Source: an uncultured Oscillibacter sp. (lineage in GTDB: Bacteria; Bacillota; Clostridia; Oscillospirales; Oscillospiraceae). From it: a DNA stretch of 64,000 bases. The notes beneath the pieces were generated by a model. It did no database searches. It was not told the origin of the DNA and saw nothing but the letters and a program-made list of their open reading frames with translations. This document shows, piece by piece, positions 20,307-33,687 of the stretch (its first letter is position 1; each line of letters begins with the position of its first letter). The translations under genes and the position numbers were made by a program. The DNA lies in contig CANAWG010000009.1 of assembly GCA_947365245.1 (NCBI GenBank), positions 1-64,000 of the forward strand, given 5' to 3'.

Positions 20307-20759
20307 ATGGAAAAACCTGAACAGAGCAAGCCCGCCTGCGGCGTGGGCCAGGGCTCCCTGCCCGGCTGCGCCCAGCTGGCGTTTCCCTATATCCCCATGC
20401 AGGAGAACAATCCTACCCGCTACAGCCAGATGGAGGCGCTGGAGACCGGCACCCTCTTTCCCGGGCTGAACCTGCCTTTCAAGGCGGCCATCCAGGCCAG
20501 GACAAAGCTGGCAAATACCGCACTGGTGGAGCTGATGGCCCTGAGCTTCGCCGTCGATGAGCTGGGGCTCTACCTGACCACCCACGCCCAGGACCAGGAG
20601 GCGCTGGAGCTGTACTGGTCCTATGTGAAGCTGCTGAAAGAAGGGCAGGAAAAGTACCAGAAGATGCACGGGCCCCTGCTCCAGACCGACCTGACTCCGG
20701 AGGACGGCTACGCCTGGCTGCGGGACCCCTGGCCCTGGGATTTTGGAGGGAATGACTGA
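20307..20759 (+). CDS. cotJB: CotJA-CotJB fusion, spore coat protein
   Basis: 150 residues joining two coat proteins that are separate genes in Bacillus. Residues about 20-65 read as CotJA (LAFPYIPMQ...TGTLFPGLNLPF). Residues about 66-150 read as CotJB (LMALSFAVDELGLYL, DQEALELYWSYV, WLRDPWPWDF). The cotJ operon is sigma-E controlled in Bacillus and its products associate with the spore coat. AAGGAGG lies 12 nt before this ATG; a closer ATG at 20300 opens only a 6-codon frame. The stop overlaps the cotJC ATG (TGATG). Confidence 0.88.
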   Translation: MEKPEQSKPACGVGQGSLPGCAQLAFPYIPMQENNPTRYSQMEALETGTLFPGLNLPFKAAIQARTKLANTALVELMALSFAVDELGLYLTTHAQDQEALELYWSYVKLLKEGQEKYQKMHGPLLQTDLTPEDGYAWLRDPWPWDFGGND

Positions 20760-20946
20760 TGTTTGTCTATGAGAAGAAATTACAGTATCCGGTGAGGATC
20801 AAAAACACCAACCCCAAGCTGGCGTCGGTGATTATCAGCCAGTACGGCGGGCCCGACGGCGAGCTGGGGGCCTCCCTGCGGTATCTCAGCCAGCGGTATT
20901 CCATGCCCTATGCGGAGCTGAAAGGGCTGCTGACCGATATCGGTAC
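20759..20946 (+). CDS. cotJC: CotJC (manganese-catalase-family coat protein), 5' segment interrupted by an element
   Basis: MFVYEKKLQYPVRIKN... through SQYGGPDGELGASLRYLSQRYSMPY to LLTDIG is the conserved N-terminus of CotJC. After Gly62-Thr63 (GGTAC, 20942-20946) similarity stops: the frame runs into element DNA and ends at 21118 as a chimera of 119 residues. The missing part resumes in the same frame at 33274. Joining at GGTAC gives DIGTEELGHLEMVG, the normal family sequence, and a 198-residue protein. The break falls just before the EExxHxE metal-ligand motif, so the unjoined gene cannot make active protein. Confidence 0.93.
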
Positions 20947-22530
20947 TGAGGGTACGTTCTGGGACCTGTGGAGGTTTTCCAGTATAAAAGTCCATTTTTG
21001 CGGCAAAAGATTGAGATATACCTCCACTTTTCGGTCCTTATGTACCACCATGCGGTCCAGGACATTTTTGCAAAGGATCTCGCTCTCCGTTCTGCCATTG
21101 ACGATTTCCGCCACCTGACTGCTCACGTCTTCTCTCAGCTGTTCCGTTTCATAGGTAACGCATTCTTTGGCCCGAGCCGCCTCAAGCCGTTTTTGGAGCG
21201 CCTCCAGCTCTTTATCATACCGCTGGTTAACCAGCTGCATCTCCTCTTTTGTGATCTGCCTGGAGAAAAACGCATCCAATACATCCGCTTTCTTTTGGTT
21301 CAGTTGGCTGATCTCATATTCCAGCACCTCGGCGTGATCGCTGTTTTGATCCTCACTCATTTGAATGGCCTCTAATGCAAGGGCAGTGATATTTTGGACA
21401 ATCCCTTCCCGGTCCATCCGCAGAGCAGCCAGGGATTGCAGAAGGATATCCATCGCCAGCTCATCCCGCAGGAGCTTGCCTATATCGCAGCCTACCTCGT
21501 TGCCCTGAACATCCACCCGCTTCTGTCCCTCCGACGTGGCGGTATAGCAGCTCCATCGCTTATAATGTGAGCCATCCTTGCGGATTTTCTTTCGGGAGAC
21601 AAAACTGGCCCCGCACTCCCCGCACTTGATCTTACCGCTGAACACATACCGGTTGGAGTGCCCCGCTCCCAATTCTCCATTGCGATTCCGCTTTTTCAGT
21701 TCCAGCTGAACGGTATCCCACAGCTCCCGGTCGATAATCGGTTCATGGTGGTCACGGATTACCACCAGTTCTTCCTCTCCGTGGTTGTATTTCTTTGCGT
21801 GGCTCAGGTAATCGGGGGTAATGGTTTTCTTCTGCACCAGGTCTCCCACATACTTCTCATTTTTCAGAATCTTGACAATGTGAGTATTGGACCATTTTAC
21901 GTTTCCACTGTGCGTCCGGTAGCCAGCTTCCCGCAGTTCCCTGGCAATGACTGTGGTTCCCTTTTTCTCTACACCATATTTATAAAAAATCAGCCTGACA
22001 ATCTCCGCACCCTCCGGATTAACTATCAGGCATCCTCCCTTTACATTATAGCCCAGGAGTGATCTTCCGAACACCACTCCCTGCTCCATTCGCCGGGTCT
22101 GTCCCCACTTCACACGGGTGGAGGTCTTGCGGCTCTCCTCCTGGGCAATCGAGCCCATGATGGACAGGCGAAGCTCAGCGTCCGGCTCCAAGGTACTGAT
22201 CCCGTCGTTCATAAACAGAACACCTACACCCAGCGCTTTCAGCTCTCGGGTGTAGGTGATGGTGTCTAAAATATTTCGGGAGAACCGGCTGACCTCCTTG
22301 GTGAGAATCAGCTGAAATTTCCCCTGGCGGGCATCAGCGATCATACGGTTAAAGGCCGCCCGCTTTTTTGTCGAGGTGCCGGTGATCCCCTCATCGGCGT
22401 AGATCTGGTACAGCTCCCAATCTGGCTGCCGGTCAATGTACTCCTTAAAATATCTCTGTTGACTTTCAAATGAGTTGGCCTGGTCGTCTCGGTCAGTAGA
22501 CACGCGGCAGTAGGATGCTACTTTTATCAT
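20908..22530 (-). CDS. Large serine recombinase of the cotJC element
   Basis: 540 residues. Resolvase domain with catalytic Ser11 (YCRVSTD) and the Arg cluster in TKEVSRFSRN; recombinase domain (LLGYNVKGG..., LKNEKYVGD); zinc ribbon CGECGASF; long C-terminal coiled coil (YEISQLNQKKADVLDAFFSR...); end motif VEVYLNLLPQKW. Such enzymes integrate and excise elements with short att sites. ATG 22530 fits the family start MIKVASYCRVS; GTG 22542 abuts the ribosome site. The frame runs 34 nt past the attL core into cotJC DNA, so the last 10 residues (ISVSSPFSSA) come from the host gene. Confidence 0.93.
   Translation of the reverse strand: MIKVASYCRVSTDRDDQANSFESQQRYFKEYIDRQPDWELYQIYADEGITGTSTKKRAAFNRMIADARQGKFQLILTKEVSRFSRNILDTITYTRELKALGVGVLFMNDGISTLEPDAELRLSIMGSIAQEESRKTSTRVKWGQTRRMEQGVVFGRSLLGYNVKGGCLIVNPEGAEIVRLIFYKYGVEKKGTTVIARELREAGYRTHSGNVKWSNTHIVKILKNEKYVGDLVQKKTITPDYLSHAKKYNHGEEELVVIRDHHEPIIDRELWDTVQLELKKRNRNGELGAGHSNRYVFSGKIKCGECGASFVSRKKIRKDGSHYKRWSCYTATSEGQKRVDVQGNEVGCDIGKLLRDELAMDILLQSLAALRMDREGIVQNITALALEAIQMSEDQNSDHAEVLEYEISQLNQKKADVLDAFFSRQITKEEMQLVNQRYDKELEALQKRLEAARAKECVTYETEQLREDVSSQVAEIVNGRTESEILCKNVLDRMVVHKDRKVEVYLNLLPQKWTFILENLHRSQNVPSVPISVSSPFSSA
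20942..20951. other. Left recombination junction (attL core)
   Basis: GGTACTGAGG, matching GGTACGGAGG at the right junction in 9 of 10 bases. Crossover within GGTAC restores the canonical CotJC frame. A second GGTACG starts at 20951, but crossing over there would insert three residues. Confidence 0.8.
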
Positions 22531-22559
22531 GGTATCGTTCACCCCTTAGTTTTGATTCA

Positions 22560-22594
22560 GACTGGTGCGGCACACACAATATACCGCACCGGTC
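22560..22594. promoter_or_regulatory. 11-bp hairpin upstream of the recombinase gene
   Basis: GACTGGTGCGG (22560-22570) pairs with CCGCACCGGTC (22584-22594), one wobble, 13-nt loop. No T run. Located between the stop of the 61-residue gene and the recombinase start, where it could modulate recombinase expression. Confidence 0.45.
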
Positions 22595-22613
22595 TTTAGA
22601 AGTCCATTACTTT

Positions 22614-22799
22614 TTAGAATATATTCAACTGTTTTTTTAATTTTTCTTCCGCATATTGATACTGTATTTCTGTTAATACACCTTTGTCCTTCAGCGTCAG
22701 CAAAACGGCTCTTTGATACTCGAACAAGAACTGGCTGTCGGTCTCCTTTGTGATCTCCCGGTCGTTTTCGATACCAAGCAACCGTGCCTGTTCCGCCAT
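22614..22799 (-). CDS. Small SHOCT-like protein next to the recombinase
   Basis: 61 residues from ATG 22799 (ggggagtggcagg ribosome site); an upstream in-frame start is less likely. The C-terminus LKDKGVLTEIQYQYAEEKLKKQ resembles a SHOCT-type short helical motif. Small proteins like this commonly sit beside serine recombinases on Clostridial elements; a role as directionality factor is conceivable but unsupported. Same strand as its neighbours. Confidence 0.7.
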   Translation of the reverse strand: MAEQARLLGIENDREITKETDSQFLFEYQRAVLLTLKDKGVLTEIQYQYAEEKLKKQLNIF

Positions 22800-22932
22800 C
22801 CTGCCACTCCCCTTTGTCTCCAGGGTATGCATAGGACTGGCCTGCTTTGATAGATTTTACCCCTTTCTTATTTTATTTTCATGTGGCTGTTGCTCTGAGC
22901 CTTATGAAATTTCATTTCGTGCCTCCCAAATT

Positions 22933-23928
22933 TTACATAGTCTGTTCCAACCGCTGATCACCGCTCAACTTCTGCCCCATGGCCAGTTTCTTGATTGCCT
23001 CTCGCCGGCGCTGCTTGCTGTCTGTCCAAGTGGGCGGCGTGGGGAGCGGAGACATATCCTCGAGACGTTCCACTGACTTGCCCAGCTGAATGAGGCCGTC
23101 TGCCAGATCGCCCATCCAGCCATTGTCAGGCTCCACGCTACCGGGGCAAAATCCCACGGCCTGCCGGTAAGTGAACAGCGCCTCCAGATTTTCTTTGAGG
23201 AAGGTCTCATCGTGGAGGCTGCTGTCCCGGCACTTGCGCCCGTTGGGGCAGGTGAAGGTGATATGCTTCCGGGTGTCCGTCCAGGTCACTTCATACCCCT
23301 CGTACTCCATGTTCTCAATGAAGCTCTCCCGGTCAACGGCATACTCCAGCGCCTCGTTGATGGCCTGGATCAGATCCAGTTTCCAGCTGTCCGCCCTGAG
23401 TCCAGCCTGGTACTCACCGGGCTTCATCCGTTTCTTTTTCGGATACTTCTCCGGCTCCTCCAGCACTCGCAGTCCGTGGGTCATGCAGATCTCGTCGTTG
23501 AGCTTCCGGTGGGCCAGCAGGGTGTCTCGGTTTTGGTGGAGCTTTCTGCCGTTCTCGCAGCTGACACTGTTCACCACTAAATGGTTGTGGAGGTGATTGG
23601 TGTCGACGTGGGTGGCGATCACCACCTCGTAGCCGGGGAACGCTTTCTGGGCCAGCTCCAGTCCAATGGCGTTGGCCTCCTGGGGCGTGAGATCATCGTT
23701 CTCGGAGAAGGACTGCACGAAGTGATAGAACTGCCTGCCGTCCGTTTTCCGGAATCGCTGCTTGGTGGTCATCATCTCCAAGTAGGAGGACTGAGGTACG
23801 CAGTTGCTCCCGGTGACCAGGCACGCACCGTCCAACACCGTCTTCTTTGTCTGCACCACATAGGACAGCACTCCCAGCATGGCCCCGGTGGTCTGCTTCT
23901 TGTTTCGGATGGCGGTAAAAGTAGCCAT
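22933..23928 (-). CDS. MobP/VirD2-like relaxase
   Basis: 331 residues. The metal-binding His triad motif is plain: HVDTNHLHNH with His107, His112, His114 and His116. A Tyr in the first 25 residues (LSYVV) or the YHF motif may be the nicking residue. Nicks oriT and pilots the strand during conjugative mobilisation. Its start overlaps the end of mobC (ATG inside the shared 23926-23928), so the two are coupled. No type IV secretion genes are present, so transfer would need a helper. Confidence 0.88.
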   Translation of the reverse strand: MATFTAIRNKKQTTGAMLGVLSYVVQTKKTVLDGACLVTGSNCVPQSSYLEMMTTKQRFRKTDGRQFYHFVQSFSENDDLTPQEANAIGLELAQKAFPGYEVVIATHVDTNHLHNHLVVNSVSCENGRKLHQNRDTLLAHRKLNDEICMTHGLRVLEEPEKYPKKKRMKPGEYQAGLRADSWKLDLIQAINEALEYAVDRESFIENMEYEGYEVTWTDTRKHITFTCPNGRKCRDSSLHDETFLKENLEALFTYRQAVGFCPGSVEPDNGWMGDLADGLIQLGKSVERLEDMSPLPTPPTWTDSKQRRREAIKKLAMGQKLSGDQRLEQTM

Positions 23929-24239
23929 CAGCCCACCTCCTTTGTCAGTCTGCGGATAGCCGCACAGAGGTCGGCGTACTTGTCGATCAACTCATCGCTG
24001 CGGAGGACAGTGATCCATCCCATGTTGGCCAGCGTGGTCAGCTGGTTGAGATTGCGGCCCTGGGCCTTCAGCTCTGAGAGGACAGCGTCCAGTCCCTCTA
24101 TCCGAACGATCTCCTGCCCCAGTCCGCAGATACACAGGTAGTCTGTGAGGGTCATATTAGCGTCCTGCGCCCGCTGTTGGAGCTGCGCTTTCACCTTGGG
24201 GGTCATTCGTGCTGTGACGATTTCTGTTTTCTTCTGCAT
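23928..24239 (-). CDS. MobC-like relaxosome accessory protein
   Basis: 103 residues. N-terminal ribbon-helix-helix-like segment (EIVTARMTPKVKAQLQQRAQDANMTLTDYL) and a C-terminal MobC pattern (RNLNQLTTLAN). Binds near oriT and assists the relaxase in related systems. Strong ribosome site (ggagaaaggaaacgga). oriT is expected nearby but could not be located by eye. Confidence 0.85.
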   Translation of the reverse strand: MQKKTEIVTARMTPKVKAQLQQRAQDANMTLTDYLCICGLGQEIVRIEGLDAVLSELKAQGRNLNQLTTLANMGWITVLRSDELIDKYADLCAAIRRLTKEVG

Positions 24240-24261
24240 TCCGTTTCCTTTCTCCTCCCCT

Positions 24262-25455
24262 TCAGGGGCAGGGGGTGCGGGGCCTTGCCCCGGCGAATGC
24301 GGCCGGCGTATAGCCGGACGCTATGCTTGCCCCACCCGAGGGTGGGTTTTCCGCCCCAACGGGGGCCTCTCTGTCTGGTAAGGGCTCAGCTTCCCTCCTC
24401 GCCTCCCGCTGGCCCACACAGGGCGTTACAGGGGCAGTGACAGGGTCAACAGGGTCGGCGGTACTGGCCTCGGTGTTTTCGGCACTATCGGCACGGCGCA
24501 GGTCGATCAGCCGTCTCCCGTTGCTCCGGCGAATAATTGCCGTGATACCTGCGCTGCTTAGAGCCTCAACGCTTTGCAGGATTTTCCGGGATACGTTCTT
24601 GGACGTGATGCCCTCTGTGCCATCAGGGTCGATGTGCTGGGTCAGCTCTGTGGGAGTGCCGATAAACTGAGAGCGGTTCCGGAGTAAGGCAGAGAGAAGA
24701 ACAACCACTTTGCCGCCCAGCAGCTCAGGCTGGTGATAACTGTCCGCTGTCACCTCCCACACATTGTCTGCGTTGCGGCGCAGTTCCAGCTCCCGATACT
24801 CGATGTCCCGACCGATACAGCTGAGCCTCGCCCTGCCGCTGCCCCGCTGCTCCTCCACCAGCGTGAAGCTGGCGTCCACCGCACCGCTGATGGCGGTGGT
24901 ACCAGAGATGCGGTTGAACACGTCGTCCGCCTTTTCCTTGCGCAGGTGGTGGATCAACAGGATAGCGATCCTGTGGGCATCCGCCAGACGCTTCAGGACG
25001 GACAGGTCGCGATAGTCGTTGGCGTAGGTGTTGTTGTAGGAAGCACTCCGAATCATTTGCAGAGTATCGATGATGATGAGGGATGTGTCTGGATGTTCAT
25101 TGAGGAACTGCTCCAGCTGTTCCGTCAGGCCATCGCCCAGGATGCGGCTCTCGGTGCAGAAGTGGACGCTGGCCGGCGCGTCCTCTGTTACGTCGAACAG
25201 CCGGTTCTGGATGCGGAGCTGGGAGTCCTCCAGGCAGAGGTACAGGGTCGTGCCCTGCTTTACCTGCATCCCCCAGACAGGCTCACCCTTGGCAACTGTC
25301 ACCGCCAGCCACAGGGCCAGCCAGGATTTCCCCACCTTGGGTGAGCCTGCGAGGATGTGCAGGCCCTGAGAGATCAGCGTGTCCACCACGAAGTTCAGCG
25401 GCTGGAGCGGACGGCTCATCAGGGTCTCGCCATCGATGGTGTTGAGCTTGTTCAT
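24262..25455 (-). CDS. RecA-like AAA ATPase (RepA/DnaB-type) of the element
   Basis: 397 residues from ATG 25455 (aaaggggaaacaaa). Walker A GSPKVGKS at 37-44, Walker B LIIIDTLQM, and the RepA-like motif LLIHHLRK with SGAVDASF. C-terminal 70 residues are a low-complexity Ala/Pro/Glu tail, probably disordered. Similar proteins on mobilisable elements act as hexameric helicases in replication of the circular form; that is an inference here. First gene of the minus-strand mobilisation operon. Confidence 0.82.
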   Translation of the reverse strand: MNKLNTIDGETLMSRPLQPLNFVVDTLISQGLHILAGSPKVGKSWLALWLAVTVAKGEPVWGMQVKQGTTLYLCLEDSQLRIQNRLFDVTEDAPASVHFCTESRILGDGLTEQLEQFLNEHPDTSLIIIDTLQMIRSASYNNTYANDYRDLSVLKRLADAHRIAILLIHHLRKEKADDVFNRISGTTAISGAVDASFTLVEEQRGSGRARLSCIGRDIEYRELELRRNADNVWEVTADSYHQPELLGGKVVVLLSALLRNRSQFIGTPTELTQHIDPDGTEGITSKNVSRKILQSVEALSSAGITAIIRRSNGRRLIDLRRADSAENTEASTADPVDPVTAPVTPCVGQREARREAEPLPDREAPVGAENPPSGGASIASGYTPAAFAGARPRTPCP

Positions 25456-25506
25456 TTTGTTTCCCCTTTCGATGTTGTATTTTATTAGTTCAATCACTAC
25501 CATTGG

Positions 25507-25568
25507 ATTGTAGCATCCGCTCTTGACATCCGTCAATAGGTTTTATATCATAATAGTGCATACACTAT
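25507..25568. promoter_or_regulatory. Back-to-back promoters with adjoining -35 boxes and an operator-like repeat
   Basis: Plus: TTGACA (25523-25528), 17 nt, TATCAT (25546-25551), driving the DUF6076 gene. Minus: TTGACG (25531-25536), 18 nt, TACAAT (25507-25512), driving the ATPase-mob-recombinase operon. The -35 boxes form TTGACATCCGTCAA, itself a near-palindrome. ATAGTG-CATA-CACTAT (25553-25568) sits at the plus start site. Confidence 0.7.
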
Positions 25569-25604
25569 TCCGCTGGTTACATTATCTACTGGGAGGAAAC
25601 GAGC

Positions 25605-26480
25605 ATGGGCGTTCTGGGAAAAGACCTTTTTGACATTGACCGTCCCCGCACAAATGTCAAGGTGTACTTCGGTGCGATGGGCTATTGGGTTGAGGATGAT
25701 CCCGCTGTCATCCCCTATGGTACGGCACTGACGGAGCTTCTGAATCTGCCTGACGTAAAAGCCGCACCAAAGCCGGGCGGTATTTTGCGGACATATCTTT
25801 CAGCGGGTGAGGCTGCCGCACCAATCCGGGAGCGGTATACCTGGTTCCTGGAGAACCTCTTTGGGGATGCTGTGCCAGAAAAGAAAAAAGGCCAGAGGAA
25901 AAAACCTCTGGCCGAGTTGATTCATTCGCAGGGACTGGATGCGCTGGTGAGCGGCGTCAGTTTGGGGAAGGACCTGGAGATCGATACACCCCAAGTTAAT
26001 GTACAGTACGCTGTTTTAGAACGGGAGGATGAGACTCATGAGCTGGTGGAGAAGATGTACTTCGACCACCTGGCGGATTTCATCTATGTGGAGTTCATGA
26101 AGGGACTGCAAAAGGGATTTGTTCCAAAGCGCTGTGCTAACTGTGGGCACTGGTTCCTCCAGGAGCCGGGACTGACCTATCACTACTGCGCCCAAGTTGC
26201 ACCTGGGGAGACGGAACTGACCTGCAGGGATATCGGCTCCAGAGCCAGTTTCCGGGACAAGGTCAAGAACAATGAGGTCTGGCAGATCCACCAGCGGGCC
26301 TATAAAAAGTATTTCGCCAGAACGAAGAAAGGTACCATGAGCAGGACCGAATTTGAAGCTTGGGCACGGGAGGCTGAGGTATTGCGGGATGAGGCATTAG
26401 AACAATTTAAGAAAAGCAAGGAAATTGAAGAACGAAGACTCATCGCTAAAACGCTGGAAAAATCTTTAAACCGGGTCTGA
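25605..26480 (+). CDS. DUF6076-type protein with a C-terminal zinc-finger-like motif
   Basis: 291 residues, cytoplasmic. The central part is mixed charged with no catalytic motif I know; residues about 185-215 hold CANCGHWF...YHYC...C, similar to the treble-clef motif of CGNR/ABATE and DUF6076 proteins (RCANCGHWFLQEPGLTYHYC). It may bind DNA or RNA. Single gene driven by the divergent promoter; a common passenger on Clostridial mobile elements. Confidence 0.7.
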   Translation: MGVLGKDLFDIDRPRTNVKVYFGAMGYWVEDDPAVIPYGTALTELLNLPDVKAAPKPGGILRTYLSAGEAAAPIRERYTWFLENLFGDAVPEKKKGQRKKPLAELIHSQGLDALVSGVSLGKDLEIDTPQVNVQYAVLEREDETHELVEKMYFDHLADFIYVEFMKGLQKGFVPKRCANCGHWFLQEPGLTYHYCAQVAPGETELTCRDIGSRASFRDKVKNNEVWQIHQRAYKKYFARTKKGTMSRTEFEAWAREAEVLRDEALEQFKKSKEIEERRLIAKTLEKSLNRV

Positions 26481-26488
26481 GCAGGACA

Positions 26489-26692
26489 ATGCGCTTTCAT
26501 GTCCCATCGATAGCCTCTCAGATCAACAAAATGCAGTTTGATAAGTTCTGCGAATCGTCCCTCTCCCGGTGCTTCGGGAAATATGCGTTTCCCTGGTCCG
26601 CTCCCAACACGGAGGAAACCCGCCTGTCTCAGACTACATTGGATGCCATTGTCTCCGATCTTGACCGGATCGGCCAATCGTCCGCAATGTGA
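26489..26692 (+). CDS. Short ORF after DUF6076, doubtful
   Basis: 67 residues, no recognised family; starts 8 nt after the previous stop with a weak agga site. The middle (FDKFCESSLSRCFGKYAFPW) looks protein-like, so it may be a decayed 3' fragment of an older gene. Confidence 0.25.
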   Translation: MRFHVPSIASQINKMQFDKFCESSLSRCFGKYAFPWSAPNTEETRLSQTTLDAIVSDLDRIGQSSAM

Positions 26693-26697
26693 TCTCA

Positions 26698-26737
26698 GCC
26701 TGTCAAGAACCCGCCGACGGGCAAGTTCTTGACAGGC
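26698..26737. terminator. Strong hairpin between the DUF6076 unit and the lipoprotein gene
   Basis: Perfect 13-bp stem (26698-26710 with 26725-26737), 14-nt loop; convergent placement suggests a bidirectional terminator, although no T run follows. Confidence 0.6.
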
Positions 26738-26769
26738 CGAGTCATTTCACCGCATGATTGCTCGATTCA

Positions 26770-27498
26770 TCATTTCTTTGCCAGCGTCAGATAGTTTCCG
26801 TTCTCCATATCCGCCAGCAGGTCATTGCAGATGATGGCGGTGCCCTCCACACCCTCCAGAGACTCCAGCACTTCCCCGTCATTGACTTCCTTGTATACGC
26901 CATCGTCACAAGTCAGCAGCACAAATTCCGTCTCCGCGCCGCTGCCGGAACGCTGAACAATCAGCCCTCTGGTGCCGTACTCTTGTCCGTTGGTTGCTTC
27001 CTTTGTCACGATAATGGGCGTGTTAATCAGTGTGAGGGACTGATTTACCGCCATATCCGCATAGGGGAGTACCCACAGCATGGAGGAACCGCCGGTGCCG
27101 CTGGTGTACGGTCCCATGACTACCGCCAGAATTTCCTCCGTACCGTCGCCGTTCAGGTCCACATAGTTGTAGTAATACTTCGTGGCCTCCCAGGATTCCT
27201 CCGGGATCTCGTAATAGTCAATAATCGCCTGCTCCAGCTCCGGGTTCGCCTCCGTCTCCGCCATGACCTGCTCCACCCCCGCCGGGAGCCAGCCGGTAAA
27301 GGTGTTTTCTGTACCCTCGGCGGGTTCCGCATGGTCCGCTTTCTGCTCCGGCTGGGACACGGGAGCCTGGATTTCCGTCTGGTTCTCCGGTTGGCTGTCC
27401 AGCTGGCCGGTGGGGGCCTCTGTCTGTCCGCAGCCGGTGAGTGCCGCCCCCGCCATGCAAAGCGCCAAGGCCATAACCGCAAGTTTCCTCTTCATCAT
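26770..27498 (-). CDS. Lipoprotein of the ECF module
   Basis: 242 residues; signal peptide with lipobox LTGC (Cys about 23), a Gln/Pro/Glu-rich linker (about 25-65), and a globular domain with YNYVDLNGDGTEEILAVVMG, an FG-GAP/EF-hand-like D-x-N-G-D-G loop that could bind calcium. No enzyme motif. It is preceded by the same ECF-type promoter motif as the sigma gene, so it is probably a regulon member and not just read-through from the anti-sigma gene. Confidence 0.8.
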   Translation of the reverse strand: MMKRKLAVMALALCMAGAALTGCGQTEAPTGQLDSQPENQTEIQAPVSQPEQKADHAEPAEGTENTFTGWLPAGVEQVMAETEANPELEQAIIDYYEIPEESWEATKYYYNYVDLNGDGTEEILAVVMGPYTSGTGGSSMLWVLPYADMAVNQSLTLINTPIIVTKEATNGQEYGTRGLIVQRSGSGAETEFVLLTCDDGVYKEVNDGEVLESLEGVEGTAIICNDLLADMENGNYLTLAKK

Positions 27499-27552
27499 CG
27501 TCTTCTCCTTATTTCTTCAACAACTAGATTTTGGCTGCTTCTGAGGCCGCCA

Positions 27553-27586
27553 TCTATTAGACGGCAGCCTCGGTGATTTCGACGCA
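27553..27586 (-). promoter_or_regulatory. ECF promoter of the lipoprotein gene
   Basis: Minus strand TGCGTCGA (27579-27586), 15-nt spacer, CGTCTAATAGA (27553-27563). Identical in both boxes and spacing to the motif upstream of the ECF sigma gene. Confidence 0.8.
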
Positions 27587-27594
27587 TTAAACTT

Positions 27595-28452
27595 TTATTT
27601 TTCCGGAATTTCATCGGCAAGGCCGCTGGCTACAGACAGTCCGGTATCTCCGCCAAATTGATCCTCCAATGCCTTCAGCGCGGCGTTGGCCTCGTCCAAG
27701 GTATCGTATTGGCCGATGGTGATGATATAGCCGCCGCTCCGGGTTTGCAGTTGTGTGGCGCCGCTGGCCCAATAGATCTCATTCATGATTCCGAGTTCCT
27801 CGCCGAAGGGGACCGCCTCCGAACGAAGATAGTAGACCTCCCGCTCCGGCTGATACGCTTCATCGGGGTAGAACCGTACAGAGAGCGAGGCGGGATTGGC
27901 GTACTCAGTGATCTCATAGGTCCAGCCGCCGTTCAGGACGATGATAAAGCCGAACATGGAATCGTCGCCGATCATGGCCCGGGACACGCTCTGCACCGCC
28001 TCCGTGGACAGCAGGCTCTCGGAAATGGCCTCGTAGTCGATGGTGCGGACGCCGTGCAGGGTCAGGATGATCCGGTTGGGCGCCAGCAGATGGGAGACGG
28101 TGTAAACCGGCGCGGCGTCCAGTTCCTCCGTGGAACTCTCAAAATGAAATTCCACCGTTTCTCCTTCCGCGGACGCTTCGGTGTGGGCGCCGTCCGTGAT
28201 CTCCCCGCCGCTGCCGATGTGAAGCACCCGCACCACAGCCCCGATCACTGGCAGCCGGGAGGCGTAGGCATAGACTGGCGTAATGTTGGCGCTGAGAAAT
28301 GCCACGCAGAACACGGCGGCGGCGCTCACCAGCCATTTGCGCAGGGTTCGTGTCCAGGCTTCCCGCTCCGCCCGGCTGATGGCGTCCCAAATGATCCGGT
28401 CCAGATCCGTTGGGATCGGAATGGCGTCATACTGTGCTTTTCCAATGTTCAC
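27595..28452 (-). CDS. Anti-sigma-factor-like membrane protein with SPOR-like C-terminus
   Basis: 285 residues: N-terminal cytoplasmic segment (1-38), one transmembrane helix (about 39-60, WLVSAAAVFCVAFLSANITPVYA), and a large extracytoplasmic region. The last 60 residues (GGYIITIGQYDTLDEANAALKALEDQFGG) resemble a SPOR/peptidoglycan-binding repeat. Position directly after an ECF sigma, with 4-nt ATGA overlap, marks it as the cognate anti-sigma factor. No zinc-type HxxxCxxC motif is present. Confidence 0.75.
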   Translation of the reverse strand: MNIGKAQYDAIPIPTDLDRIIWDAISRAEREAWTRTLRKWLVSAAAVFCVAFLSANITPVYAYASRLPVIGAVVRVLHIGSGGEITDGAHTEASAEGETVEFHFESSTEELDAAPVYTVSHLLAPNRIILTLHGVRTIDYEAISESLLSTEAVQSVSRAMIGDDSMFGFIIVLNGGWTYEITEYANPASLSVRFYPDEAYQPEREVYYLRSEAVPFGEELGIMNEIYWASGATQLQTRSGGYIITIGQYDTLDEANAALKALEDQFGGDTGLSVASGLADEIPEK

Positions 28453-28967
28453 GATTCACTTGCTCCTTTCTCCAGAAAACCGCGCATTTTCCGCAGGGCC
28501 CGGTAGAGCCTGGACTTGACGGTGGTCTCCGGCTCCTGCAAAATTTCCGCGATTTGAACGAAGGTCTGTTCCTCGAAGTACCGCAGCGTCACGCAAATCC
28601 GGTCCTTTTCACTGAGGGCGTCCAGAGCCTTGTATAAGTCCATGGAATCCTCGGGGGTCAGTTCATCCTCCAGCACCGCCAGAACCTCCAGCGCCGGTTC
28701 CTCGCACAGGGTGACGCGGGAACGGCTGCGGGTAAAGTCAATGGCGGCGTTGATGACAATGCGGGTCATCCAGGTGTCAAAGTAATCCGCCTCCCGCAGG
28801 GTCCCCAGGGTCCCCAGGGTCCTGAGTCCCTTGTAGGCCGCCTCCCCCACAATGTCCAGGGCGTCATGCTCGTTTTTTACATACGAATAGGCAATGCGGT
28901 AGTATTTTTCCTTTCTGGATTGCAATTCCCGGGCAAAGCGGAATTTGTCTATGACGGCAGTACCCAC
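28449..28967 (-). CDS. ECF sigma factor 1 of the element
   Basis: 172 residues: region 2 (YYRIAYSYVKNEHDALDIVGEAAYKGL, DTWMTRIVINAAIDFTRS) and region 4 (DRICVTLRYFEEQTFVQIAEILQEPETTVKSRLYRALRKMR). AGGAG sits 7 nt before GTG 28967; the upstream ATG 28988 has no site. The gene has its own ECF-type promoter and the next-but-one gene carries the same motif, implying autoregulation. A local triplication of CCCAGGGT at 28800-28820 gives GTLGTL, a recent slippage product within region 2. Confidence 0.85.
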   Translation of the reverse strand: MGTAVIDKFRFARELQSRKEKYYRIAYSYVKNEHDALDIVGEAAYKGLRTLGTLGTLREADYFDTWMTRIVINAAIDFTRSRSRVTLCEEPALEVLAVLEDELTPEDSMDLYKALDALSEKDRICVTLRYFEEQTFVQIAEILQEPETTVKSRLYRALRKMRGFLEKGASES

Positions 28968-28999
28968 TTCATCACTCCTCGGCTTCATTTTTGCAAGGG

Positions 29000-29049
29000 G
29001 TATTGTACAATACTGTCTATTAGACGAAGTTCCCCGCAGAATCGACGCA
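29000..29049 (-). promoter_or_regulatory. ECF promoter of the sigma gene plus a 14-bp palindrome
   Basis: Minus strand TGCGTCGA (29042-29049), 15-nt spacer, CGTCTAATAGA (29016-29026). GTATTGTACAATAC, a perfect palindrome, follows at 29000-29013, close to the expected start site, and could be an operator. Confidence 0.8.
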
Positions 29050-29138
29050 GGAAACACAGAAAATAGGCGGGAAAACTTTTGGAGAGCTTCCCCGCCTTGA
29101 TTTCTATGAGAAAACAGGCTGTGTGTTCCGCCGCGGCG

Positions 29139-29831
29139 CTAAAAGTGCGGCGTCTCTTCATTGGCACCCGTCCCACCCGGCGCCGCCGCTTCACTGCCGG
29201 AACCAAACAAGCTGTCAATCAATTCCTGCAATTCACGGACGAAGCGGCAGACATGAAAGCCGTCGCATACCGCGTGATGAACCTGAATCGCAAGGGGCAG
29301 CCAGGTCTTCCCGTTCTCCTGATAAAATCTGCCCATGGTGAATATGGGAGTCAGATAGGTAAATCCGTGCTGGAGGTTGAGGTTAAATCCTTCAAACGTG
29401 GTCCAGGGAAGTATGGAAACCGGAAAGCTGTTTTCCGGAACGTCCGGCTTTCCCGTCATCCCCTCCCGGTCTCCAAACTCTGCCAAATCCGCTTCATAGG
29501 CGGCGAGGAACACCCTGTAATCGGAATGGTACTCCGTCCACAGGTTGGAAAACGTCTCCGTCTTCTTATGAAAAACCGTATAGCAGGGCAGCATATCCTG
29601 ATAGAATCCCGGCTCACCTGCCTTGTTCAGGGCCATTCTGAATTCCTCGTGCCGGTTGACTATCGTTGCAATGCAGTACAACATGGCGGGGTACAGCCTC
29701 TGTCCCGCCTCTTTGATCCGGGTGATATCCAATTTGACGGTCATGCTGTATGTGCAGGGAATCTGCGAAAAATAATGCTCAAAGTATTCTTTTCTGTCCC
29801 AATTCTTTCGATCTATGATTGTAAAACTCAT
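29139..29831 (-). CDS. Type A chloramphenicol acetyltransferase (CatP-like)
   Basis: Transfers acetyl from acetyl-CoA to chloramphenicol. 230 residues. The family pattern is complete: PCTYSMTVKLDITRIKE near the N-terminus, MLYCIATIVNRHEEFR, FNLNLQHG, PIFTMGRFY, and the active-site VHHAVCDGFH with His186-xxx-Asp190-Gly. It resembles Clostridial CatP, found on the Tn4451/Tn4453 mobilisable transposons that also use a large serine recombinase. The C-terminal 20 residues (Ala/Gly/Glu-rich) are an extra tail. Whether it confers resistance is untested. Confidence 0.9.
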   Translation of the reverse strand: MSFTIIDRKNWDRKEYFEHYFSQIPCTYSMTVKLDITRIKEAGQRLYPAMLYCIATIVNRHEEFRMALNKAGEPGFYQDMLPCYTVFHKKTETFSNLWTEYHSDYRVFLAAYEADLAEFGDREGMTGKPDVPENSFPVSILPWTTFEGFNLNLQHGFTYLTPIFTMGRFYQENGKTWLPLAIQVHHAVCDGFHVCRFVRELQELIDSLFGSGSEAAAPGGTGANEETPHF

Positions 29832-30026
29832 GTCGCTGCTCCTCTCAGATCGTATGCTATGATTGTACCACAGATTTCAGCGCGGGAATACAACGAGTTT
29901 TCCTGCCGGTATTCAACTTGAACGCCTTCTCCACAAAATGTTTTTATTTTTTGAATGGATTTTTCCAGGTCAATCGTGTTATAAGTGAAGCCGAAAGCGG
30001 CTACCAAAACATAACGGAGGAACATC

Positions 30027-30455
30027 ATGAAAAAAACACTTTTAGGAGTTTTGTCCACGGTCATCGTCTTGTCCGTATGCGCGGCCACCGCATTTGCGGC
30101 GGGTCCGAGATGCGGACGCAATTTCGTGGACGCAGATGGAGACGGAATCTGCGACAATGCCGGCAGCGGGTGCGTCTATGCCGACGCGGACGGAGACGGC
30201 CTCTGCGACGTCTGCGGCGCGGAGCACGGAAGCTGCCTGGCCGGGGAAGGAGCGGCCTTTGTGGACGCGGACGGAGACGGTGTCTGCGACAACTGCGGCG
30301 CGTATCACCGGTGCGGGACAGCCGGAGACGGCAATTTTGTGGACGCGGACGGCGATGGTATCTGCGACAACTACGGTTCCGGCCGGGGCTGCGGCTACGG
30401 GCGCGGCGGACACTGCGGCCGGGGGAACGGTTTCCGGGGAGGCCGGGGCCGGTAA
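30027..30455 (+). CDS. Secreted protein with four EF-hand-like Cys repeats
   Basis: 142 residues. Signal peptide (1-25, ending AFAA). Then four near-identical 12-residue repeats of the form F/Y-x-D-A-D-G-D-G-x-C-D at about 33-44, 50-61, 79-90 and 104-115, spaced by Cys/Gly-rich linkers, and a Gly/Arg-rich tail. The DxDGDG loops are typical calcium ligands (type-3 thrombospondin or dockerin-like); paired Cys suggest disulfides. Good ribosome site aacggaggaacatc. 15 nt before an ECF sigma and its RsgI-like anti-sigma: probably the first gene of that operon. Confidence 0.8.
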   Translation: MKKTLLGVLSTVIVLSVCAATAFAAGPRCGRNFVDADGDGICDNAGSGCVYADADGDGLCDVCGAEHGSCLAGEGAAFVDADGDGVCDNCGAYHRCGTAGDGNFVDADGDGICDNYGSGRGCGYGRGGHCGRGNGFRGGRGR

Positions 30456-30470
30456 ACAATAGGAGCGGTT

Positions 30471-30956
30471 ATGCGGAGCGAACAGGAGGCGGCCCGGGCC
30501 ATCGAGCGGTATTCCGATACCGTCCGGCGGCTCTGCGCGGTACATTTGAAAAATGAAGCCGACACCGAGGACATATTTCAAACCGTGTTTTTGAAATATG
30601 TCCTTAGCTCCGTTTCCTTTGAAAGTGAAGAGCATGAAAAGGCGTGGTTTATCCGGGTCACCATCAACGCCTGCAAGGATCTGCTGAAAGGATTTTTCCG
30701 CCGCCATGCGGTTCCGCTGGATGAAGTGAAAGAGTGTCCGGCGCAGCCGCCCCCGGATTACAAAGACGTCTGGGAGGCCGTGTTCTCCCTTCCGCAGAAA
30801 TACCGGGATGTTGTGTATCTGCACTACTTTGAGGAGTATACCGCCCCGCAGATCAGCCGGATTCTGGGAAAAAACGTCAACACAGTTTATACGCTCCTGA
30901 CCCGCTCCAAACAGATGCTGAGGGAAAAGCTGGGAGGTGGTTATGACTATGAATAA
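30471..30956 (+). CDS. ECF sigma factor 2 of the element
   Basis: 161 residues: region 2 (YSDTVRRLCAVHLKNEADTEDIFQTVFLKYV, KAWFIRVTINACKDLLK) and region 4 (PQKYRDVVYLHYFEEYTAPQISRILGKNVNTVYTLLTRSKQMLREKL). Ribosome site ataggagcggtt. It overlaps the next gene (RsgI-like) by 14 nt, the usual sign of a sigma/anti-sigma pair. No TGCGTCGA/CGTCTAA motif is seen upstream, so it probably recognises a different promoter from ECF 1. Confidence 0.88.
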   Translation: MRSEQEAARAIERYSDTVRRLCAVHLKNEADTEDIFQTVFLKYVLSSVSFESEEHEKAWFIRVTINACKDLLKGFFRRHAVPLDEVKECPAQPPPDYKDVWEAVFSLPQKYRDVVYLHYFEEYTAPQISRILGKNVNTVYTLLTRSKQMLREKLGGGYDYE

Positions 30957-31731
30957 CGCGCTCAAGAATCTCTTCGGCCCCATCCGGGCGGAGGAGGATC
31001 TTAAGGACCGCACCAGGGCCTCTCTCGCGGAGCGGACCCGCGGCTATACCAAAAGGGCGGCGGCAAAGCGCAGATATCCTGCCTATACTGCGGCCTGCGC
31101 GTGTCTGGCGCTGGTGCTGCTGGGAGGGCGCTGGCTGTACTTCACGCCCACAGCGGAAATCAGCATTGACATCAACCCCTCCATCGAACTAAGCGTCAAC
31201 CGGTTTGACCGGGTGATTTCCGTAACCGGCTTTAACGAGGACGGACGGGAACTCTCCCATGAGCTGAATGTAAAATACAAGAGTTATGCCCAGGCTGTGG
31301 AGCAGATCCTGCACCACGACAGCATCACGGCGCTGCTGTCGGCTGGCGAGGTAATGTCCATTACGGTGGTAGGCCCGGATGGACAGCAGTGCGCCAAACT
31401 CCTTTCGGGCGTGGAGGCGTGTACGGCGGGCCAACACAATACCTACTGCTATCTTGCGCAGCCCGAGGAGGCCGCCGCGGCCCACGAGGCGGGGCTTTCC
31501 TGCGGAAAATACAGAGCATTTTTAGAATTGCAGCGTCTCGACCCGGACATCACGCCCGAAGCCGTGCAGGGCATGACCATGCGGGAGATCTGGGATATGA
31601 TCGGCCGCCTGTCATCTGACGGCGGCAGCGATGCTCCACAGCCCGGCGGCTGGGGCAACGGGCATCATGGCAGCGGCGGCGGTCACGGAGGATGGAGGCA
31701 TGGCTGGGACGGGTATGACCAGCACAAATGA
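30943..31731 (+). CDS. RsgI-like transmembrane anti-sigma factor
   Basis: 262 residues. N-terminal cytoplasmic domain (about 1-45), a transmembrane helix (about 48-66), and an extracytoplasmic RsgI core EISIDINPSIELSVNRFDRV followed by VISVTGFNEDG. RsgI proteins normally control SigI and self-cleave at an Asn-Pro bond in the NPS motif; here the partner is an ECF sigma. The C-terminus is a Gly/His/Trp-rich tail (HHGSGGGHGGWRHGWDG), possibly metal-binding. Start at 30943 chosen because GGGAGG is 5-6 nt upstream; 30949 is an alternative. Confidence 0.82.
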   Translation: MTMNNALKNLFGPIRAEEDLKDRTRASLAERTRGYTKRAAAKRRYPAYTAACACLALVLLGGRWLYFTPTAEISIDINPSIELSVNRFDRVISVTGFNEDGRELSHELNVKYKSYAQAVEQILHHDSITALLSAGEVMSITVVGPDGQQCAKLLSGVEACTAGQHNTYCYLAQPEEAAAAHEAGLSCGKYRAFLELQRLDPDITPEAVQGMTMREIWDMIGRLSSDGGSDAPQPGGWGNGHHGSGGGHGGWRHGWDGYDQHK

Positions 31732-31771
31732 CAAGAGAAAAACAGGCACAATTTTCCCCGCTAAAGCAAAC

Positions 31772-31802
31772 AGGACCGGCGCTTTTCCTTTGCGCCGGTC
31801 CT
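31772..31802. terminator. Convergent terminator between the RsgI-like and SLH genes
   Basis: AGGACCGGCGC (31772-31782) pairs with GCGCCGGTCCT (31792-31802), 9-nt loop. Confidence 0.7.
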
Positions 31803-31822
31803 ACCCATATTTTATTGAGAGG

Positions 31823-32911
31823 TTACCCCTGCTTGTTCAATGCCTGCATCATCTGTTCCGCCTCCACTGAGGTCACAGCGTCTTTGGGACCCAACCGTCC
31901 CTCGGCGGGAATCAGGCCCTTCTGGTGGGCCCAGGCCAGCGCCGGCTGGGCAAAGCGGGAGATATCCCCCACATCGCTGTATTTGGTCAGGCCGGGATAG
32001 TCCATCAGCCTGGGACTGCCCGCCTGCCGCCAGAGGATGACGGCCAGCTGCTCCCGAGTCACAGGATTATCGGGGCCAAAACTGCCGTCGACATAGCCGG
32101 ACATCAGCCCTTCGCTGGCGGCCCAGCGGACTGCCTCAGCATAGGTGGCATTCTGATCTATGTCGCTGAAGCTCATGGCGTAGTTGACCACCGGGTTTCC
32201 CTGGGCGGTATGGAGCAGGACTGCCAGGGCGGATCGGGTCAGGGCCTCCTCCCCTTGGCTCAGGAGCATGATGTGGCTGACGTGGGCCTGTCCGGGATAG
32301 GACGCTGCCACAGGGCCGTACCACGCCATGATATGAGAGCCGGCTTTTATTTCACCAAGCCCCGCAGGGGCGGCCCCCTCGTAGGAGGAGAGGGACGTCT
32401 CTTCGTCCGCCAGCAGGAACAAACCGCCGTTGTCCGTTGTCATGCGGAGGGTTCCGTTCATTTCCTCCACAGCCTCCACCTCATGGTAACGGGCACAGGA
32501 AGCATCCTGGGGCACATTGCGCACGACGGCAAAGGCGGCGGACTGGGGCGGCAGGGAGCGGGTGGAAACAGGACTGTGGAATACATAGAGTCCCTCGCCC
32601 TCCTTCAAATCAAACGGGTCACTGGCCGTGCGGTTTCCGCTGTCGATCCATACGGTGTCCTCAGACAGGACCATGACATATTCGCCATACCGGTCAGAGG
32701 ACAGCCGCAGGGCGGTCATCCCTCCGTCCTCGCCCCGGGAGATGGCCTCTGCTTTTCCATAATAGAGGACACTGTCGGGAAGGGAGGCCACCTTTTCCAC
32801 CGGGGGCGTTTCAGAGGAAGCATTGTCCGTTTTTTGCGCCGCCGCTGCGGGGAGCGCAAGGGAGCAGGCCAATGCGCCGCCCAGAATCATGGACATCAGC
32901 TTTTTCTTCAT
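31823..32911 (-). CDS. S-layer homology (SLH) domain secreted protein
   Basis: 362 residues from ATG 32911 (aaaaggagaaaaacac); the open frame upstream is not native. Signal peptide 1-26 (ending PAAAAQ). A central beta-rich region of unknown type (about 45-230), then C-terminal SLH motifs: FSDIDQNATYAEAVRWAASEGLMSGYVDGSFGPDNPVTREQLAVILWR, followed by a weaker second one (YSDVGDISRFAQPALAWAHQKGLI). SLH domains anchor proteins to pyruvylated cell-wall polymer. Last cargo gene of the element, about 360 bp from its right end. Confidence 0.85.
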   Translation of the reverse strand: MKKKLMSMILGGALACSLALPAAAAQKTDNASSETPPVEKVASLPDSVLYYGKAEAISRGEDGGMTALRLSSDRYGEYVMVLSEDTVWIDSGNRTASDPFDLKEGEGLYVFHSPVSTRSLPPQSAAFAVVRNVPQDASCARYHEVEAVEEMNGTLRMTTDNGGLFLLADEETSLSSYEGAAPAGLGEIKAGSHIMAWYGPVAASYPGQAHVSHIMLLSQGEEALTRSALAVLLHTAQGNPVVNYAMSFSDIDQNATYAEAVRWAASEGLMSGYVDGSFGPDNPVTREQLAVILWRQAGSPRLMDYPGLTKYSDVGDISRFAQPALAWAHQKGLIPAEGRLGPKDAVTSVEAEQMMQALNKQG

Positions 32912-33273
32912 GTGTTTTTCTCCTTTTACTTGATTTCTGGAAACAAGGATTTTGCCGCTGTCAGGTATGACGGGAGAAACGTCCAAAAAGTTCCCATATA
33001 TTTCTGTTGAACCAGAAAAGGAGCGGTAAGATTCAGGCAGAAACTTCAGGTCTGTCTGCTGATTGTATGCTTTTTCTGAATTACTTTGGAAGCGCCACAC
33101 ATACATCCACCTGCCAGGAGGGCTTGTCCTTTTTGCAATAGCTCATCTCTCCCGTTCTCAGCCGGCGAAATGGTATCCGCTGAGGTGACAGGCTGTAAAG
33201 GTAACCAACCGGCAAGCCCTTGCAATCAACGGATTTTTCCGACTTTGAAGTGGTACATTTCGACCCCTTTGTA
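32912..33273. other. Right end of the element, no independent gene
   Basis: 362 bp with no convincing gene of its own. On the minus strand a frame is open from attR down to the stop at 33081. In the excised circle it would be joined in phase to the recombinase, replacing its last 10 residues with 63 others (beginning TKGSKCTTSKSEK). The 32912-33080 part probably holds the SLH promoter. Confidence 0.6.
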
Positions 33274-33283
33274 GGTACGGAGG
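33274..33283. other. Right recombination junction (attR core)
   Basis: GGTACGGAGG; the cotJC reading frame resumes here in the phase left at 20946. Confidence 0.8.
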
Positions 33284-33687
33284 AGCTTGGCCACCTGGAG
33301 ATGGTGGGCACCCTGGTTCATCAGCTGACCCGGAACCTGACGGAGGAGCAGATTCGGACCTCCGGATTTGACACTTACTTTGTGGACCACACCACCGGCG
33401 TCTTTCCCCAGTTCGCCTCCGGCTACCCCTGGTCCGCCTCTACCATGCAGGTCACCGGCGACGTCATCGCTGATCTGACAGAGGATCTGGCGGCGGAGCA
33501 GAAAGCCCGTGTGACCTACGACAACATCCTGCGCCTGAGCGATGACCCGGACGTCAACGATGTTATCCGGTTCCTCCGGGCCCGGGAAATCGTCCACTTC
33601 CAGCGCTTTGGCGAGGGACTGCGGCTGGCCAAGGACAAGATGAATGAGAAGAACGTCTACTATATGAATCCTGCGTTCGACAAGTGA
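33274..33687 (+). CDS. cotJC: CotJC, 3' segment beyond the element
   Basis: 137 codons: GTEELGHLEMVGTLVHQLTRNLT, FDTYFVDHTTGVFPQFASGYPW, DLTEDLAAEQKARVTYDNILRL, RFLRAREIVHFQRFGEGL. This is the metal-binding four-helix core of CotJC and continues the 5' half at 20759-20946 without missing or repeated residues. No ribosome site serves it in place; an ATG at 33220 would add 18 element-encoded residues. It is expected to be expressed only after the element leaves. Confidence 0.93.
   Translation, partial: GTEELGHLEMVGTLVHQLTRNLTEEQIRTSGFDTYFVDHTTGVFPQFASGYPWSASTMQVTGDVIADLTEDLAAEQKARVTYDNILRLSDDPDVNDVIRFLRAREIVHFQRFGEGLRLAKDKMNEKNVYYMNPAFDK

Follow-up and report, generated by a model that had tools for sequence, protein, structure and literature searches.

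A mobilizable element within the sole cotJC gene of an uncultured Oscillibacter and its likely skin-like excision

The 64,000-nucleotide stretch of DNA analyzed here (contig CANAWG010000009.1 of an uncultured Oscillibacter sp., hereafter the window) carries the spore-coat gene cotJC in two pieces, separated by a mobilizable element encoding a large serine recombinase. This element is most likely excised precisely from the sole cotJC gene in the mother cell, as skin elements are, a reading that rests on sequence comparison and to which we assign a probability of about 0.75. A skin-like excisable element had been proposed from the letters of the window (the original prediction), and the proposal finds support in the resident recombinase, the in-phase repeats, a companion open reading frame (ORF) preceded by a -10 box and the constraint on detached 3' halves of cotJC in relatives. 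In the proposed course of events, the element would integrate at codons 62-63 of cotJC, and the companion ORF would act as a recombination directionality factor timed by sigma-E (or sigma-K). During sporulation, precise excision would then rebuild cotJC in the mother cell, and germ-line cells would retain the element.

The interrupted gene and its counterparts in relatives

The cotJC gene is split after codon 62. Its frame runs open from 20759 into a left GGTAC copy and is in phase again at a right one, so that the predicted interruption at codons 62-63 (20946) and resumption at 33274 are borne out. The sequence likewise agrees with the claim that GGTAC lies at both junctions within a 10-nt match of nine positions (GGTACTGAGG versus GGTACGGAGG), with a spacing of 12,332 bp between the copies. 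Joining the host flanks restores, as foreseen, a stop-free 198-residue CotJC with the motif DIGTEELGHLE, neither half containing a stop, and both parts match the Pfam family Mn_catalase. At the left end, a further GGTAC copy stands nine bases inward, where GGTACG gives a 6-nt match and an alternative in-phase register. The empty site, which the original prediction had suggested looking for, is seen in the intact cotJC genes of three same-genus genomes (84-86% protein identity) and fits the first register; a fourth same-genus locus (L171) has a more distant cotJC match only. A second intact copy had been named among the findings that would count against the prediction, and no other Mn_catalase match was found by profile search in the window's own assembly (2.82 Mb, 53 contigs, 95% complete). 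One detail failed, namely that the recombinase would end at the left junction: its ORF (20908-22542, minus strand) reads through and stops inside antisense cotJC. The window also encodes SpoIVA, so its host is likely a spore former. Thus, features of skin-type elements are found together, i.e., a sporulation gene interrupted with its frame otherwise intact, in-phase direct repeats and an element-encoded recombinase.

Interruption of cotJC recurs across the family. Among 400 family genomes, the window's own included, 318 had an Mn_catalase match, and 87 of these besides the own genome showed an apparently broken gene, defined by at least two matches and no good full-length one and judged by eye; this is an upper figure, as some cases are contig breaks, and 80 of the 87 were looked up. 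Breaks gather at three sites. Among the matches listed, site B (that of the window) accounts for 42 genomes, in which a piece begins at profile position 57-66, site C for 19, with a piece that ends at 150-155, and site A for 18, with a long piece beginning at 24-30 (at a contig end in two of these 18); a few breaks fall elsewhere, e.g., near residue 52-56 in G391. In the numbering of the window CotJC, sites A, B and C correspond to about residues 33-35, 62-65 and 134-136, all at glutamate or histidine codons, which we take to encode manganese ligands. SpoIVA served as a control in 120 family genomes: it was matched in 100, appeared in two pieces in G046 (overlapping, frameshift-like) and G037 (at contig ends), and showed no inserted element in any of them; of the same 120 genomes, 25 (own included) were flagged for cotJC.

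From split genomes, 40 loci were taken, and together with the window 32 loci hold two flanking cotJC pieces. A serine recombinase lies in or overlaps the gap in all 32, and a repeat of at least 5 nt stands at the exact register in 22. An intron or intein was set aside, as a recombinase is present in every two-flank locus (no RNA-family search was made). In a recombinase tree of 49 entries (two more were excluded by the program), the nine site-C entries form one clade (100/100) and the two site-A entries another (100/99), whereas L062 stands separate from other entries. Site B comprises a main group of 34 entries (90/94) and a distant group of three, L036, L039 and L063 (100/100). Judging from this tree, there are at least five recombinase lineages in cotJC.

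Starting from the recombinase instead of the gene, 95 loci were chosen by likeness to the window recombinase. They comprise 80 loci from named genomes, the best of at least 576, together with 13 viral contigs and two records from phage collections, and they overlap with the loci from split genomes. Within this selection, 88 of 95 contain a cotJC fragment, nearly always broken at about residues 59-69. Their hosts include Flavonifractor sp. An10, Pseudoflavonifractor phocaeensis, Oscillibacter, Anaeromassilibacillus, Roseburia sp. 1XD42-69 and Lachnospiraceae, and cotJC pieces are present in 10 of the 13 viral contigs, two of the others (L081 and L084) breaking off a few bases from the recombinase. 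No circular element copy was found among the viral contigs or in a plasmid search, the plasmid match being an integrated copy.

Two species pairs are collinear through flanks and element, namely L042/L043 (87.6% over 7.4 kb) and L053/L054 (88.9% over 10.6 kb), and L040/L041 share long blocks matching at 79-81%. The ratio of nonsynonymous to synonymous divergence (dN/dS) of the 3' half is 0.010 for L042/L043 and 0.000 for L053/L054; it is 0.022 for L047/L048, 0.031 for L040/L041, 0.099 for L041/L051 and 0.032 for L038/L044, L041 being counted in two of these six pairs. Intact cotJC pairs have a median of 0.152 (range 0.023-0.385, n=95). Right-half dS spans 0.37-1.13 across the six pairs; within L042/L043, dS is 0.87 in the recombinase and 0.67 in the upstream ORF, and the two cotJC halves stand at 0.48 and 0.37. 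In the other four pairs outside the two collinear ones, recombinase dS exceeds upstream-ORF dS. A detached half this constrained implies regular reunion with the rest of the gene, and precise excision thus probably restores cotJC.

A candidate partner for the recombinase is the companion small ORF, whose family occurs in 98 of 136 loci and adjoins the recombinase, just upstream, in 88 of these 98. A profile detects it in 15/32 two-flank loci, but not in the site-C, site-A and some of the site-B ones. With starts picked by ribosome-binding site in 70 dereplicated cases, the mother-cell-type -10 box CATANNNT lies 12-50 nt ahead of the small ORF in 47, against a mean of 2.5 and a maximum of 6 in 200 shuffles, and ahead of other ORFs in 27/466. 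The full sigma-E pattern was observed in 17/70 versus 0.35 by shuffling, and the full sigma-K pattern in none of the 70. Site-C elements have a different small ORF of 43-52 residues, preceded by the same box at -26 to -36 in 7/9. On the host side, 50 of 82 loci have CATANNNT close to the start of cotJA (no shuffle control), and the full sigma-E pattern is not commoner than in shuffles upstream of cotJC (7/88 vs 5.0). The small ORF is a candidate recombination directionality factor, which sigma-E (or sigma-K) would time.

Alternatives to excision

The most serious alternative is a plain integrative mobilizable element that uses cotJC as attachment site, the gene being knocked out and dispensable. 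It is favored by the relaxase, NikA-like and AAA_25 genes, the resistance gene and the horizontal spread of the element, and by the fact that most family genomes with a match are not flagged as split. Moreover, cotCB and cotD mutants of Clostridioides difficile are reported to be without significant coat defect (PMC11222575), and CotJC may therefore matter little. Nevertheless, this explanation is unlikely, because detached 3' halves remain under constraint in splits common to diverged species (dN/dS 0.00-0.10), because 12 of 14 carrier genomes looked up have no full-length cotJC, and because sporulation-type -10 boxes precede two different companion ORFs.

Besides that mutant phenotype, several observations weigh against excision. 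The exact-register repeat is not clear in ten of the 32 two-flank loci (L036, L037, L045, L049, L050, L052, L058, L059, L062 and L063), although L037 has a 10-nt repeat displaced by one codon. A cotJC match is absent from seven of the 95 recombinase-family loci; L081 and L084 end a few bases from the recombinase, L111 and L113 are short contigs, and the others are L085, L110 and L158. An in-frame stop interrupts a cotJC match in 5/124 loci, and the full sigma-E pattern precedes no more than 17 of the 70 small ORFs. The L033/L034 pair, with a 3'-half dN/dS of 0.046, does not fit simple vertical descent: its recombinase dS is 0.41 versus 1.00 for the upstream ORF, so the element was probably exchanged. 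The element of L047/L048 has diverged further (79%) than the right flank (95%), and separate uptake may be involved. For both pairs, left-half values spoiled by overlapping matches were set aside. The window itself is also a less favorable case. Its cotJC gives dN/dS values of 0.072 and 0.079 against L050, with an outlier of 0.31-0.41 for the right half against L046. Its recombinase is 87-89% identical in L050, L088, L089 and L095, where CotJAB is 46-49% identical, which indicates that window-type elements moved horizontally. The window insertion may thus be recent, and its dN/dS against L050 may be a legacy of earlier history; it is the relatives, not the window copy, for which the data indicate long co-evolution.

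Separate synthesis of the two halves, assembling in trans with no need of excision, would also account for purifying selection on both. This is very improbable, since the 5' ORF continues into unrelated residues, the 3' frame opens only from an upstream TTG inside the element, and some cotJC genes are in three pieces. An assembly artefact or chimaeric contig, suggested by the many metagenome bins and by some flagged pieces at contig ends, is scarcely credible given that isolates and single-contig genomes have this structure too (Flavonifractor sp. An10, G098, G370 and the Pusillibacter faecalis MM59 replicon).

The element, its recombinase and other guests of cotJC

The features of the locus are collected in Table 1. 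The presence of mobilization genes, a chloramphenicol acetyltransferase gene and two extracytoplasmic function (ECF) modules, all part of the original prediction, is confirmed by Pfam matches. The Pfam scan of 14 element ORFs found an integrase, a relaxase and a NikA-like protein and no conjugation pore gene; capsid, tail and terminase genes were also absent from these 14, so that a prophage is not indicated. From its gene content, the element reads as an integrative mobilizable element. The AAA_25 ATPase is presumably RepA-like. A small ORF at 30027-30455 has repeated DADGDG-type motifs of calcium-binding appearance and no Pfam match. In L050, which belongs to another genus, the segment from recombinase through ATPase is shared with the window at 85% nucleotide identity, and the other window cargo proteins have no match there.

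Table 1. Features of the split cotJC locus and of the inserted element (window positions)
Feature	Position	Strand	Basis or remark
Fused CotJA-CotJB ORF, upstream in cotJ operon	20307..20759	+	Pfam PF11007 and PF12652 in one 150-residue ORF
cotJC 5' part (residues 1-62 plus GGTAC)	20759..20946	+	Mn_catalase positions 1-65; in-phase join to 33279
Large serine recombinase, 544 residues	20908..22542	-	PF00239, PF07508, PF13408; frame crosses core, stop in antisense cotJC
Left GGTAC core copy (attL side)	20942..20946	+	Intact same-genus cotJC: GA(C/T)ATCGG(C/T)ACCGA(A/G)GA
Conserved small ORF, 72 codons, candidate recombination directionality factor	22614..22832	-	Likelier start codon 12, at 22799
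CATACACT, mother-cell-type -10 box ahead of the small ORF's likely start	22822..22829	-	Sequence
MobA/VirD2-type relaxase	22933..23928	-	PF03432
NikA/MobC-like accessory	23928..24239	-	PF21983
AAA_25 ATPase	24262..25461	-	PF13481
DUF6076 protein (cargo)	25605..26480	+	PF19553
ORF without Pfam match	26770..27498	-	
ECF-type sigma factor (28449-29057) and DUF4179-like partner (27595-28452)	27595..29057	-	PF08281/PF04542; PF13786 below cut-off
Type A chloramphenicol acetyltransferase (cargo)	29139..29831	-	PF00302; NF000491 above curated cut-off
Second ECF-type sigma factor and RsgI-like anti-sigma	30471..31731	+	PF08281, PF23750
SLH-domain protein	31823..33106	-	PF00395
65-codon open tail in phase with recombinase at core; would-be recombinase C-terminus in excised circle	33084..33278	-	Shared end motif; dN/dS 0.27 vs L050
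Right GGTAC core copy (attR side)	33274..33278	+	
cotJC 3' part with remainder of DIGTEELGHLE	33274..33687	+	Mn_catalase positions 62-198

The recombinase frame crossing its own crossover site is not peculiar to the window. Among 69 loci in which a recombinase 3' end lies close by (some genomes counted twice), 51 have the recombinase stop within antisense cotJC. At the far end of nine such crossing elements with a visible right end, the open in-phase tail measures 65, 64, 60, 40, 65, 69, 68, 26 and 70 codons, and the same measure gives 18, 19, 16, 45, 12, 76, 19, 16 and 69 codons in nine loci where the recombinase frame ends within the element; other frames are also long in some loci, the longest at least 200 codons. 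The tails of the window, L050, L033, L034 and L066 share an end motif around VDV..ALP with synonymous codon changes, those of L069 and L070 end in variants of it, and the motif is also found in Pusillibacter faecalis MM59, which was not used in its discovery. Tail dN/dS is 0.27 for the window against L050 and 0.16 for L033/L034. Applied to 45 loci that contain the right half of a site-B split, a profile of the seven tails recovers these seven (by construction), L035 and, weakly, L115. No long tail exists in L042/L043, and the tail has no Pfam match and no relative in the viral contigs.

On a simple reading of these frames, the circle would encode a longer recombinase whose C-terminus is swapped upon integration. 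The tail may be translated from an antisense start in the integrated state, and it is speculation that the swap governs the direction of recombination. If the tail joins the recombinase only in the excised circle, its conservation would be an evolutionary trace of excision. More broadly, and as a tentative idea that we consider possible rather than probable, cotJC could be a developmental docking gene, on a few conserved spots of which at least five recombinase lineages have converged, excising with mother-cell timing. In the window lineage, each integration would exchange the conserved tail of about 65 residues for 12-16 residues from antisense cotJC, the integrated and circle forms making up a self-editing switch that could set direction.

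Some genes seem to harbor more than one guest. Left cotJC pieces start at residue 18-40 instead of 1 in 19/99 cases, as expected if a second element occupies site A; three of these 19 (L101, L109 and L122) lie within 400 bases of the locus end, and only L138 has an N-terminal piece in the same locus. In Lachnospiraceae bacterium 3-2, cotJC is broken at sites B and C on one contig, and in Intestinibacillus at sites A and B over about 68 kb, alongside a full-length copy. Contig C1 of G143 carries three cotJC pieces, the last on the opposite strand, an inversion that is beyond repair by simple excision. Close to the left junction of L071 (G005) are two site-B-family recombinase ORFs, one a 197-residue fragment, which possibly stem from nested or tandem insertions.

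The guests also differ in content. Minimal site-B elements of about 3 kb, consisting of the recombinase and one ORF of about 430-470 residues, occur in L041, L051 and L040 (G166, G098 and G260); the second ORF of L041 is a pyrimidine nucleoside phosphorylase, a metabolic enzyme placed between cotJC halves. The L081 contig is a prophage ending at a site-B-type recombinase, with a minor tail protein, an endolysin and two further adjacent serine recombinases. In Pusillibacter faecalis MM59 (NZ_AP023421.1, 241210-271736; L178 and L179), 29.9 kb separate the two cotJC halves on a 504-kb replicon, and neither half is entered as a gene in the gene table consulted, itself incomplete. The cotJC gene can thus escape gene tables in split genomes.

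Only a few genes of spore formers are known to undergo programmed excision, and here one coat gene of Clostridia repeatedly takes in guests: mobilizable elements, a prophage and minimal elements of about 3 kb, in some cases two together. This suggests a stable niche, an attachment site whose loss of function is cheap up to the stage of the terminal mother cell, when excision makes good the cost. Cultured carriers exist, namely Pusillibacter faecalis MM59 and Flavonifractor sp. An10.

Comparison with known systems

In the skin element of C. difficile, which interrupts sigK, the serine recombinase CD1231 is encoded inside the element, and the small directionality factor CD1234, under sigma-E and SpoIIID, is needed for the excision that restores sigK in the mother cell (PMC5025042). 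The window element resembles it by its internal serine recombinase and small partner, here a candidate. However, the skin target is a sigma factor gene and skin is prophage-like, whereas the window target is cotJC, the element is mobilizable, and the companion ORF adjoins the recombinase. The gin element in gerE of Bacillus cereus is likewise a non-phage element in a small sporulation gene, with a serine recombinase, an extra factor GirX and a 9-bp repeat (PMC5595907); it differs by its three recombinases, its size of 28.6 kb and its target. Mobile elements excised to restore sporulation genes also include yin in yabG of C. botulinum, SPbeta in spsM and vfbin in spoVFB (PMC10747680, PMC4191935). 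These reside in other genes, and the sources consulted gave no report of one gene being occupied by several lineages at several sites, or by two elements together.

Closer to cotJ genes, the attR of prophage phi027 in C. difficile R20291 lies beside a CotJC-like gene, ORF 1465, which is described as downstream of attR and not as interrupted, R20291 having two further CotJC genes (PMC11222575). An element inside cotJC was not found in the open-access literature, where searches gave skin, gin, SPbeta/spsM, vfbin and yin. As for the recombinase, the nearest parallel is provided by archaeal suicidal integrases, the attachment site of which lies inside the recombinase gene, as in the window lineage, so that integration alters the gene; a review of archaeal integrases confines recombinases that disrupt their own gene to archaea (PMC8371274). 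Those integrases are of the tyrosine type and their gene is split in two, whereas the serine recombinase described here keeps its catalytic part and would have only its C-terminal end exchanged.

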